From: Candidatus Obscuribacter phosphatis
Lineage (GTDB): Bacteria; Cyanobacteriota; Vampirovibrionia; Obscuribacterales; Obscuribacteraceae
Reading direction: 5' to 3'
Assembly: GCA_001899315.1 (NCBI GenBank)
Contig: MOYA01000002.1
Location: forward strand, 351,070 to 415,069
Length of the DNA stretch: 64,000 nucleotides
In this document: one piece after another, positions 1 to 8,330 of the stretch
Position numbering within the stretch: the stretch's first letter is position 1
Layout: each line of letters starts with the position of its first letter
Notes under the pieces: generated by a model
Told to the model about the DNA's origin: nothing
The model's database searches: none
The model's input: only the letters and a program-made list of their open reading frames with translations
Made by a program: the position numbers and the translations under genes

Positions 1-1334
1 CAGTCTTTCAACCCCAATGGGGAGCGGACGGCACGCTCTATTTTGTGGCCGACCAGAGTGGTTATTGGCAGCTTTATGCCCTTAAAGATTTCTACGAGCT
101 TGAACCGGTGCCGGTTTTGGGGCCTGAAGCCAGTGCCGAGGGCGTCGCACTCGATTTGTTGAGACGAAGCGAATGCGGTTTGCCGATGTGGGTCTTCGGG
201 CAGTCTACCTATGCCGTTCTTGAAGACTGCCTGGTGGTCGCTTACAACCATCATGGCATCTGGCGTTTGGTGCGTATCGAGCCGGCTTTCGAAGGCGAAG
301 ACATGCTTGGTTATGTAAGCAAGTCGCGAGTGTTTGCCATTGAGGCTCCGTACACCGAGTTTGCCTATCTGACAGGCGGCGACAAGCGGGTTTGTATGCT
401 GGCCGGCTCGGCACAGATTGCCAACAGCGTGGTGGAGTACGACCTAGAGCGGGCTGTCTTTCAGACCATAAAGTCCGGAGCGGCCGGTCTGCCGCCAAGC
501 GGCTATCTTTCCAGTCCAGAGGTGATTGAGTTTCCCACCGAGGCAGGCAAAACCGCCTTTGCTTTCTACTATCCTCCGGTCAATCAAGACTTTGATGCAC
601 CTACAGGCAGCCTGCCGCCTCTGATTGTCAAATGTCACGGTGGGCCGACCGGTTGTGCCTCTAGTTTGTTTTCGCTGGCGGTGCAATACTGGACCTCGAG
701 AGGTTTCGCCTTTGTTGACGTCAACTATGGCGGCAGCACCGGCTTTGGGCGCGAATATAGAAAACGACTCAATCAAAATTGGGGCGTAGTCGATGTGCAA
801 GATGCCTGTAATGCCGTGAAATATCTCACTGCCGCCGGCAAGGCCGACCGGCAAGCTGTGGCCATATCGGGGGGCAGTGCCGGCGGTTTCACTGTGCTTG
901 CTGCTCTTACTTTCACCGATGTATTCAAAGCTGGTGCCAGTCATTACGGTATAGGCGATCTTGAAGCCTTACTGCGTGATACCCACAAATTTGAGAGTCG
1001 CTATTTGGATAATTTGGTGGGAGCTTATCCATTTAGCAAAGCGGTTTATCAATCTCGCTCGCCCATCAATCACATTGATAAGCTTGCTTGTCCGGTCATT
1101 TTCTTTCAGGGGCTGGAAGATAAAGTCGTACCGCCCAACCAAGCCGAAGCCATGGTCAAAGCGCTAAAGGCAAAAGGTATCCCTACTGTATATATTGCTT
1201 ATGAAGGCGAGCAGCATGGCTTTCGAAAAGCCGAAAACATAATCTATACGCTTGAATCAGAACTTGGTTTCTTTCTTAAGGTATTCAAGATAGAGCATCA
1301 ACATAAAATTGCTGAACTGCCTGCCTTTGCCTGA
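1..1334 (+). CDS. S9 family prolyl oligopeptidase (5' end outside window)
   Basis: This is the C-terminal part of a dipeptidyl aminopeptidase/acylaminoacyl peptidase of family S9. The reading frame is open from base 3, and the first codons read QPQWGADGTLYFVADQSG, a typical S9 beta-propeller blade, so the true start lies upstream of the window. The alpha/beta-hydrolase domain follows. Numbering from the ATG at 45, the catalytic Ser is about residue 278 (GGSAGG), the Asp is in GLEDKVVPP near 359, and the His is in EQHGF near 391. All three are intact, so the enzyme should be active. It would cleave short peptides in the cytoplasm. No signal peptide can be judged because the N-terminus is missing. 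Confidence 0.93.
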   Translation, partial: VFQPQWGADGTLYFVADQSGYWQLYALKDFYELEPVPVLGPEASAEGVALDLLRRSECGLPMWVFGQSTYAVLEDCLVVAYNHHGIWRLVRIEPAFEGEDMLGYVSKSRVFAIEAPYTEFAYLTGGDKRVCMLAGSAQIANSVVEYDLERAVFQTIKSGAAGLPPSGYLSSPEVIEFPTEAGKTAFAFYYPPVNQDFDAPTGSLPPLIVKCHGGPTGCASSLFSLAVQYWTSRGFAFVDVNYGGSTGFGREYRKRLNQNWGVVDVQDACNAVKYLTAAGKADRQAVAISGGSAGGFTVLAALTFTDVFKAGASHYGIGDLEALLRDTHKFESRYLDNLVGAYPFSKAVYQSRSPINHIDKLACPVIFFQGLEDKVVPPNQAEAMVKALKAKGIPTVYIAYEGEQHGFRKAENIIYTLESELGFFLKVFKIEHQHKIAELPAFA

Positions 1335-3542: not shown

Positions 3543-3685
3543 AAAGTATCCCATCAGATCGATATTAGGCTCTAATCTAGCCCTGCTCGTTTGGTTTGGC
3601 TGTGTTTTTGGGTTTGATAGACGGCGACTTGTCCAAGGCTCGTGTATTATACTTATTAGTTGCTTAGAGTTCCTTGGTGCTGCCG

Positions 3686-4747
3686 ATGAAAAAGAATTTG
3701 GTTTGGGGATTTGCAATCGGACTCTATTTAGGGATGCTAGTTTGTGTCGATAGAGCTGCCTGTGAAGGACAGATAAAACAGATTAATCCGCCAGAAGTAG
3801 GATTCTTTGAAAAGCAAATCGATTGTTATGGCATTCCAATAAAGTCAGCCAAGGTGGTCTCTGATGCTGCTTTGTATAAAGCGAAGCAGCTTCTTGGCTG
3901 TATGCTTCAAAGTGTTCCCGATGTTGTAGCAAATTTAAATGAGTCGGGTTCTGAACTGCACGTTATAGGCAAGAACCAAGCAACTTCAGATCTTCCTGAA
4001 CATAGATCAAAGAAGGGAAAACCCTTTGATGGTGATCAAGATATTGATGCACGCACGCGCGGGGTTGGTGGTCTCTTCGCATCTTGCGGTGAGGAGAATC
4101 TGCTTGGACTTCCTGAAGATCGATATTTCGCAAGACGCAGTCCCGGAAGTATTTGCGTGCACGAATTTGCTCATACGATCTTGGCGTACGGATTGGATGA
4201 CAACATTAGGCGGCTATGGCAGGACCAGTATAAACGCTCGATGGGAAGGGGTCTTTGGAAGGGTGCCTACGCCACTACCAACTATGATGAGTATTTTGCT
4301 GAACTTTCAATGTGGTACTTTGGCGGTCTTGGTGATGTAGGCAAGATTTCCCCCGTACCTCAAAAGGGTAAGGAATGGCTTCGAAGCTATGATCCAGAGG
4401 CATTTCAATTAATGGAGAAGATCTATGCTGGCAGTCTCCGCCCGGTGCGTATGAAGCCCTATGCCGAGATCAGATCTCTGCCTCTTAGTGAGGAGTTAAA
4501 TTTACGCTCTCAGTTATCAGATGTTCCTACAAAGCTGAAGTTTGTTAATAGAACAAGCAAGCCAATCGACGTTTTTTGGCTTGATTTTAATGGTCACAGA
4601 AAGTCCTACGGCAGTATAGAGCCAGGAGATATTTTGGTGCAGCAAACTTTCGCTACTCATCCTTGGGTATTAGCTGACAGGAAAGGAGCAGATTTAGCCG
4701 TTTTTGTAGCAACTTCTCAGCCTTCATTGTGTGTCTTGAAGCCGTAG
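3686..4747 (+). CDS. secreted HExxH metallopeptidase with C-terminal VHL-beta-like domain
   Basis: About 353 residues. The ATG at 3686 opens a signal peptide (MKKNLVWGFAIGLYLGMLVC). The middle carries VHEFAH, an HExxH zinc site with the first His near residue 159, and NYDEYFAELSMWYF about 40 residues later supplies a Glu as third ligand, as in gluzincins (lethal-factor-like). The last 70 residues contain FVNRTSKPIDVFWLDFNG, then YGSIEPGD and THPWVLAD. This order matches the beta domain of the von Hippel-Lindau protein (NRS, WLNFDG, Y-x-x-L-x-PG, H-x-W-L-x-x-D). It should be exported and cleave or bind protein outside the cytoplasm. The substrate is unknown. Frame-compatible TTG (3674) and GTG (3677) codons are less likely starts. 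Confidence 0.78.
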   Translation: MKKNLVWGFAIGLYLGMLVCVDRAACEGQIKQINPPEVGFFEKQIDCYGIPIKSAKVVSDAALYKAKQLLGCMLQSVPDVVANLNESGSELHVIGKNQATSDLPEHRSKKGKPFDGDQDIDARTRGVGGLFASCGEENLLGLPEDRYFARRSPGSICVHEFAHTILAYGLDDNIRRLWQDQYKRSMGRGLWKGAYATTNYDEYFAELSMWYFGGLGDVGKISPVPQKGKEWLRSYDPEAFQLMEKIYAGSLRPVRMKPYAEIRSLPLSEELNLRSQLSDVPTKLKFVNRTSKPIDVFWLDFNGHRKSYGSIEPGDILVQQTFATHPWVLADRKGADLAVFVATSQPSLCVLKP

Positions 4748-7310: not shown

Positions 7311-8330
7311 TTGATTCCAGGTGTTTCAAAATGTTGTAGGGTCATCGTTCTAGCTTCTTTGCTGTTTTTGAGTCTACCGGTCATGGCTCAGAGTGAACAG
7401 TCGCTGAAAGACGGTCTCGCCGCCTACGGACGTCGCGATTATCGCACTGCCGTGCAACACCTTAGCATCGTCACTGCCAAAGGTGCAGCTCAGCCAGCTG
7501 TCTATTTGTATTTGGCTTATGCGTTTACAGGATGCGGTGACCAGCGTCGTGCTCTTGATACATACTGTCAGCTCATGAGTAAGTACCCAACCAGTCCTGA
7601 ATCGCAGACTGCTTTTCACCAGGCGGTGCGAATTGATCCGCTGGTTGCCAGCAGATATTCATCAGTTTTGCCGGCAGCAAAGAAGGTGGTTTCTGCTCCA
7701 GGGCAGGAGGCTTTTATAGATCGCGTGTTTATCACTCCTCCTCAGTATGGTCATTCGCCTGTGAGTGCGCGCACTGTCGAACTAGTAAAACGGGCGATTC
7801 GCAAAGTTAGAGCGCCTTACTACAAGATGCTGAGCGAGAGTGGCGCTACATTTACAGTAGCGCCCAATAGTATGGATAGATGGCCGGGTCACAAAGATAT
7901 AGAAGCGAAGGCTGATGGGACAGAAAGTGTGATCGGTGAGATGGGTGGGCAAACCTATCATAGAGACAACGGGGGACCAGATATCGGACTCTTTGAGAGA
8001 CCGATGATTAGAGGCACAACCAAGCTGCAAGAGCCATTTACTGATGAGTCCATCTATCATTGTGCCATTCATGAAATGGGACACGGTATAGATGATCTCA
8101 TGCGTCTTTCGCTTAATGCTGAGTTCTTGTTGAAGCACAAAGACGATATCGCCGCCATGAATGAAGAAGCTCGGTCTGAGAATACATATTATCTGAAACC
8201 TATGGAAGCCTGTTCCGAGATTACTGGAGCCCTCATCGGTGATAACGTGAATGATTCTCAAAGTAAAGCAGTTATGCAGGCGTTCCCGCGTTCTACTCAG
8301 TGGCTAAGAGCCAAGCTTGGTATTTGGTGA
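7311..8330 (+). CDS. secreted TPR protein with HExxH peptidase-like domain
   Basis: A 339-residue protein probably starting at TTG 7311, with an AGAGG site 9 bases before it. It starts four bases after the NADAR stop, so they may share a transcript. A signal peptide (VIVLASLLFLSLPVMAQ) is followed by about two TPR units (DGLAAYGRRDYRTAVQHL, YLYLAYAFTGCGDQRRAL). The C-terminal half carries CAIHEMGHGID, an HExxH zinc motif, and EACSEITG about 45 residues later could give the third ligand. It resembles lethal-factor-type gluzincins. It is likely an exported peptidase with a TPR scaffold. It is distinct from the VHL-domain peptidase at 3.7 kb, sharing only the zinc-site logic. Confidence 0.7.
   Translation: MIPGVSKCCRVIVLASLLFLSLPVMAQSEQSLKDGLAAYGRRDYRTAVQHLSIVTAKGAAQPAVYLYLAYAFTGCGDQRRALDTYCQLMSKYPTSPESQTAFHQAVRIDPLVASRYSSVLPAAKKVVSAPGQEAFIDRVFITPPQYGHSPVSARTVELVKRAIRKVRAPYYKMLSESGATFTVAPNSMDRWPGHKDIEAKADGTESVIGEMGGQTYHRDNGGPDIGLFERPMIRGTTKLQEPFTDESIYHCAIHEMGHGIDDLMRLSLNAEFLLKHKDDIAAMNEEARSENTYYLKPMEACSEITGALIGDNVNDSQSKAVMQAFPRSTQWLRAKLGIW

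Follow-up and report, generated by a model that had tools for sequence, protein, structure and literature searches.

A VHL beta domain with a conserved hydroxyproline-type pocket on a probably secreted bacterial metallopeptidase

In a 64,000-nucleotide stretch of the genome of Candidatus Obscuribacter phosphatis (contig MOYA01000002.1, positions 351,070 to 415,069), here called the window, the gene at 3686-4747 encodes a protein of 353 residues in which a zinc peptidase of the ATLF/PPEP type is joined to a C-terminal VHL beta domain. The explanation favoured here, which we consider fairly probable, is that the protein is an exported zinc endopeptidase for extracellular proteins rich in proline and hydroxyproline, with the VHL beta domain as its hydroxyproline-binding module. 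Both folds, the intact catalytic and pocket residues, and the linkage of close relatives to L-arabinofuranosidases were obtained by computation. The layout of the gene, in window coordinates, is as follows.

3686..4747, + strand: coding sequence (ATG start) of the probably exported ATLF/PPEP-like metallopeptidase with C-terminal VHL beta domain, 353 residues
3686..3763, + strand: probable signal peptide, residues 1-26, with K-K and then a hydrophobic run
3770..4435, + strand: peptidase domain, residues ~29-250, from PDB profile matches and Foldseek
4502..4744, + strand: VHL beta domain, residues 273-353 (Pfam match 273-336), from Pfam, phmmer and AlphaFold/Foldseek

The identity of the C-terminal domain is confirmed by profile and by predicted fold. 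Residues 273-336 match the Pfam VHL family PF01847 at 36.3 bits (E 5.7e-9), the curated cut-off being 21 bits, and a six-frame PF01847 search of the whole genome returned this gene as its sole match (39.6 bits). In phmmer, residues 273-334 align without gaps to residues 63-124 of human VHL (E ~0.008), 18 of the 62 residues being identical, and a profile of 53 bacterial VHL domains, built without any human sequence, recovers human VHL at E=3.5e-15. Modelled by AlphaFold, the domain has a pLDDT of 96.6. All 50 matches listed by Foldseek for this model against the PDB are VHL complexes, with E down to 8e-8 and TM ~0.8, and the best superpositions on VHL crystal structures among those listed lie at 1.2-1.9 Å across ~88 residues. 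The VHL-beta-like domain of the original prediction is thus borne out, the two checks proposed with it, a profile search and a structure model, both being positive. There is no counterpart of the elongin C-binding alpha domain of the pVHL E3-ligase subunit: no helical domain follows VHL in the AlphaFold model, and the protein ends ~17 residues past the Pfam match.

Human VHL grips hydroxyproline through W88, Y98, S111, H115 and W117, the hydroxyl being bonded by S111 and H115 (PMC9528729). All five positions are present in the 353-residue protein, the change from S111 to T321 being conservative. Their retention is counted below over 65 bacterial VHL domains.

4577..4579, + strand: W298, equivalent to human W88, hydroxyproline pocket; kept in 63 of 65 domains
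4607..4609, + strand: Y308, equivalent to human Y98, hydroxyproline pocket; kept in 57 of 65
4646..4648, + strand: T321, equivalent to human S111, which bonds the hydroxyl in human VHL; T in 59 and S in 6 of 65
4658..4660, + strand: H325, equivalent to human H115, which bonds the hydroxyl in human VHL; kept in 58 of 65
4664..4666, + strand: W327, equivalent to human W117, hydroxyproline pocket; kept in 63 of 65

No feature of the bacterial VHL domains is as conserved as this pocket. Whether 53 or 65 domains are compared, all five pocket columns fall within the top seven of 62 by conservation, N78 and G93 being the remaining two; the chance of this by a random draw of columns, a null that ignores their differing structural importance, is ~3e-6. 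Positions at which human VHL contacts the rest of HIF (67, 69, 91, 99, 107 and 110) are variable, and two further HIF contacts, 109 and 112, are moderately conserved as residues other than the human ones. Since the HIF-contact positions mostly vary while the pocket columns are conserved, the hydroxyproline site appears to have been retained and the residues that read its context to have changed. The hydroxyl-bonding pair, S/T111 and H115, is kept in 43/43 domains fused to ATLF-like or DPP-IV peptidases versus 15/22 others (P 2.4e-4), where L093, a sulfatase-type VHL domain at the C-terminus of an S9 peptidase, is grouped with the others and would make the first figure 43/44 if taken as a peptidase fusion. 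Losses from the pair occur in planctomycete sulfatases (L095, L096, L113), a sialate-esterase-like protein (L090), a leucine-rich-repeat protein (L088), a prepilin (L009) and L093. In the three sulfatases and the sialate-esterase-like protein H115 has become alanine, a change that suggests a different ligand there.

The peptidase half matches, in profile searches of PDB sequences, the lethal factor C-terminal domain (E 2e-4), PPEP-3 (5e-4) and PPEP-1 (6e-3), and PPEP-3 is also the best non-VHL structure among the matches listed by Foldseek (E 6e-7, TM 0.60 by target length, root-mean-square deviation 4.6 Å). The catalytic residues, compared across 41 aligned peptidases, are in place.

4160..4174, + strand: HEFAH zinc/catalytic motif (HExxH), residues 159-163; H159, E160 and H163 invariant in 41/41
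4268..4270, + strand: Y195, predicted oxyanion-hole tyrosine, 7 residues ahead of the third zinc ligand; 39/41
4289..4291, + strand: E202, predicted third zinc ligand; 41/41

In PPEP-3, Y190 likewise stands 7 residues before the third-ligand glutamate, E197 (PMC12828418), the spacing being equal to that of Y195 and E202. The Pfam ATLF family, PF07737, scores 17.1 bits here and 20.5 in the best relative, both under the cut-off of 27.4. Membership by Pfam score alone was accordingly rejected, and the domain is described as ATLF/PPEP-like rather than called a PPEP. From its sequence and model the peptidase half appears to be a gluzincin like the Pro-Pro endopeptidases (PPEPs) of the ATLF clade, and is a candidate for cutting Pro-Pro bonds. 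A search of the protein against NCBIfam gave no match. The N-terminal 22 residues are basic and then hydrophobic, with a hydropathy mean reaching 2.25, and are unstructured (pLDDT ~50) in an AlphaFold model of the whole protein that otherwise scores well (pLDDT 92.1, pTM 0.86); by inspection they form a probable Sec-type signal. An in-frame TTG lies at 3674, ahead of the ATG. The invariant HExxH and this signal agree with the earlier description of the rest of the protein as an exported HExxH peptidase.

Scanning GTDB genomes yielded 42 peptidase relatives, which fall into group I (L024-L048, 39-56% identical in the best segments) and group II (L049-L065, ~30% identical). The group I peptidases are linked to hydroxyproline-arabinan enzymes through fusions and neighbouring genes: GH127 (beta-L-arabinofuranosidase) is fused to the peptidase in L029, L030, L032, L034, L045 and L046, GH51 (alpha-L-arabinofuranosidase) in L035 and L042, and one or the other lies within ~6 kb in L025, L031, L033, L036, L039, L044 and L048. 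GH127 is found at 14/25 group I loci versus 0.46 expected (P 4e-19), an expectation that takes into account that most group I genomes hold 4-19 GH127 genes and two hold none. The association persists among loci without a GH127 fusion (8/19, P 3e-10) and when L029, a near copy of L030, is dropped (P 2e-17); group II loci show no GH127 association. At L031:3444-8768, GH127, the ATLF-like peptidase and DPP-IV follow one another on the same strand, separated by 4 bases at one junction and overlapping by 4 at the other, an apparent operon and a candidate complete unit for hydroxyproline-glycoprotein degradation. At L025 a GH127 gene lies directly upstream of a peptidase-VHL gene. Enzymes of the GH127 and alpha-L-arabinofuranosidase types take apart the hydroxyproline-linked arabinosides of extensin, and a prolyl oligopeptidase gene beside such enzymes has also been reported (PMC6085000). 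Together with the VHL domain and its preserved pocket, these family ties suggest a machine for degrading proteins rich in hydroxyproline, for example those found in the walls of plants or algae.

The original prediction regarded the fusion of a VHL-like fold to a secreted peptidase as uncommon. This did not hold: VHL domains occur in secreted peptidases of Cyanobacteriota, Planctomycetota, Elusimicrobiota and Bacteroidota, so that the fusion turns up in four phyla or more and is not rare; one carrier, Mucilaginibacter myungsuensis (L038), is cultivable. The most frequent host is DPP-IV, a proline-related dipeptidase, where the domain lies mostly in the N-terminal part, in Planctomycetota and in those group I genomes without the direct fusion. 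Group II ATLF-like peptidases carry it at the C-terminus (L071, L072, L079, L086, L087, L089). At L041:3169-6801 a group I peptidase gene adjoins a divergent DPP-IV gene bearing a VHL insert. The domain was found in 11/386 genomes of Cyanobacteriota, 33/246 of Planctomycetota and 16/25 of those with group I peptidases; within the source organism's own family the fusion is sporadic (9/50 genomes with VHL), one short protein there carrying a tandem pair (L018:1158-1764). Cyanobacteria also have free-standing VHL proteins (L002, L004, L005), and VHL-bearing lipoproteins and the prepilin L009 among L006, L007, L008, L009 and L011; in L003 the domain accompanies a CAP domain. In the peptidase-domain tree, which is unrooted, the VHL carriers need one label change and the GH-associated group I members form a separate branch; this would fit an old peptidase-VHL fusion that was later lost in the GH branch.

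Hydroxyproline binding, cleavage of hydroxyproline- or proline-rich chains, and a nutritional role are predictions from sequence, fold and genome context. Under the favoured explanation the enzyme would be exported and would meet a hydroxyproline-rich protein outside the cell, either an extensin-like glycoprotein of plants or algae or a collagen-like protein. An exposed 4-hydroxyproline would be held in the W88/Y98/S111/H115/W117-type pocket, and this docking would bring the catalytic domain to hydroxyproline-rich stretches, rather as glycosidases are directed by carbohydrate-binding modules. The PPEP-like domain would then cut near the bound residue, plausibly in a Pro/Hyp-rich backbone. In relatives, arabinofuranosidases would remove the sugars and DPP-IV, often with a VHL domain of its own, would trim the products. 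The earlier suggestion that the domain is a peptide reader gains from the conservation of the pocket and from the family's ties to hydroxyproline-arabinan enzymes and to the PPEP fold, whilst binding and cleavage themselves stay at the level of prediction.

Several points weigh against this explanation. The VHL fusion and the GH association lie mostly in separate branches and coincide only in L025, and the VHL-DPP-IV and group II VHL loci lie away from GH127 and GH51, with one GH51 exception. GH127 had been expected next to VHL-DPP-IV genes; none adjoins them, and this expectation was rejected. The gene is absent from both congeners searched. VHL domains also occur in sulfatases, an esterase, prepilins and lipoproteins, some of them without H115; the pocket tryptophans could be partly structural; and the human contacts H110, N67 and R69 are lost in the bacterial domains, so affinity and context will differ from those of human VHL. 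In the source genome, profile searches found neither GH127 nor a PF05544 hydroxyproline epimerase/proline racemase, so that neither deglycosylation nor hydroxyproline catabolism is evident there. The idea that arabinan enzymes accompany the gene in its own genome was rejected for GH127, and the substrate may therefore be non-arabinosylated (collagen-like, for example) or pre-processed by others. No PF13640 prolyl hydroxylase scored above the cut-off in the source genome, other hydroxylase families not having been searched, and the hydroxyproline is thus probably foreign. The only PF13640 (2OG-Fe(II) oxygenase) match, at L066:1252-3114 on the minus strand, is sub-threshold and covers the C-terminal part of an NAD synthetase-like protein of 620 residues; a self-made hydroxyproline substrate was rejected on this basis.

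The presence of VHL domains in sulfatases, a sialate esterase, prepilins and lipoproteins could also mean that the hydroxyproline-type pocket has been repurposed for another ligand, such as a hydroxylated sugar, a glycopeptide, unmodified proline or a cell-surface component, and acts as a targeting module rather than as a hydroxyproline reader. That S111 is usually threonine and that the HIF-contact flanks mostly differ would suit such a change, which we think unlikely though worth keeping in view: the hydroxyl-bonding pair is intact in all domains of both main types of peptidase fusion, and it is in the sulfatase type that H115 is lost. That the protein processes a bacterial self protein (an adhesin, a pilin or a matrix component) as PPEPs do, VHL reading its proline-rich motif, seems quite improbable. 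The PPEP fold of the peptidase half, the cutting of adhesion proteins by PPEP-1 with release of cells (PMC11460543) and the existence of the VHL-bearing prepilin and lipoproteins all speak for it, and yet the relatives accompany plant-glycan enzymes, not adhesins, and the source genome offers no PF13640 hydroxylase above the cut-off. It is very improbable that the VHL domain is a mere structural or oligomerisation add-on whose pocket is conserved for folding. W88, W117 and N78 could indeed be structural, and many relatives function without the domain, but positions 111 and 115, which are polar and belong to the pocket, are better conserved than the hydrophobic positions of the sandwich core, and VHL is a mobile unit that occurs in enzymes of unrelated kinds and, in cyanobacteria, by itself.

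Comparison with known systems places the protein between several of them. It shares with the human pVHL beta domain the fold, the gap-free 62-residue alignment and the five pocket positions (S111 as T), and differs in being extracellular by prediction, fused to a peptidase, devoid of the elongin C alpha domain and mostly without the HIF contacts. With PPEP-1, PPEP-3 and the ATLF clade (PF07737, MEROPS M34) it has in common the HExxH, the Tyr-7-Glu layout, the fold and secretion; it is ~18% identical to them, falls under the Pfam cut-off, and belongs to a family with VHL or GH partners. The Svx peptidase of Pectobacterium, also a secreted gluzincin, cleaves extensin and uses a second domain to read arabinan, a feature of hydroxyproline-rich glycoproteins (PMC13164431). 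That domain is acyltransferase-like, not VHL, and the likeness drawn here is one of function; by analogy Svx serves as an established example of an extensin-cutting gluzincin whose recognition of the substrate depends on a second domain. The HypBA1/HypBA2/HypAA systems of Bifidobacterium and Xanthomonas combine GH127 with an alpha-L-arabinofuranosidase, in Xanthomonas with an adjacent prolyl oligopeptidase gene, but no ATLF-like peptidase or VHL domain is described for them and their alpha-enzyme is GH43, in place of GH51 in group I (PMC6085000). A bacterial VHL-domain protein is already known: a hypothetical protein of Litorilituus sediminis, matching PF01847 and predicted to be extracellular, was interpreted differently, as a tumour suppressor, and the abstract of that report notes no analysis of a hydroxyproline pocket, a peptidase or the genomic setting (PMC9002001). 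A partial literature search found no report of bacterial VHL as a hydroxyproline reader or in peptidases.

No conserved operon was found around the gene, and its neighbours have no clear link to it. An S9 prolyl-oligopeptidase-family gene (window 45-1334, + strand; PF00326, 171.6 bits) lies ~2.3 kb upstream, with no evidence of a link. A second secreted-looking HExxH protein (window 7311-8330, + strand; IHEMGH) begins with a repeat-rich segment and matched nothing in Pfam or among PDB sequences.

Should the domain bind hydroxyproline, the secreted peptidases of bacteria would have a module dedicated to reading it, the protein counterpart of a carbohydrate-binding module. This would give a function to a bacterial domain that is widely annotated yet unexplained, supply a candidate endopeptidase step in extensin or collagen turnover beside the hydroxyproline-arabinan enzymes, and provide ready-made affinity reagents for hydroxyproline peptides. 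More tentatively, and with the chances somewhat against it, hydroxyproline reading by VHL-type domains may be an old bacterial invention directed at hydroxyproline-rich extracellular proteins, put to use in three or more classes of peptidase (the two ATLF-like groups and DPP-IV), with the oxygen-sensing VHL of animals re-using the module. Hydroxyproline binding by the bacterial domains would also offer a concrete test of the origin of the animal oxygen-sensor domain.
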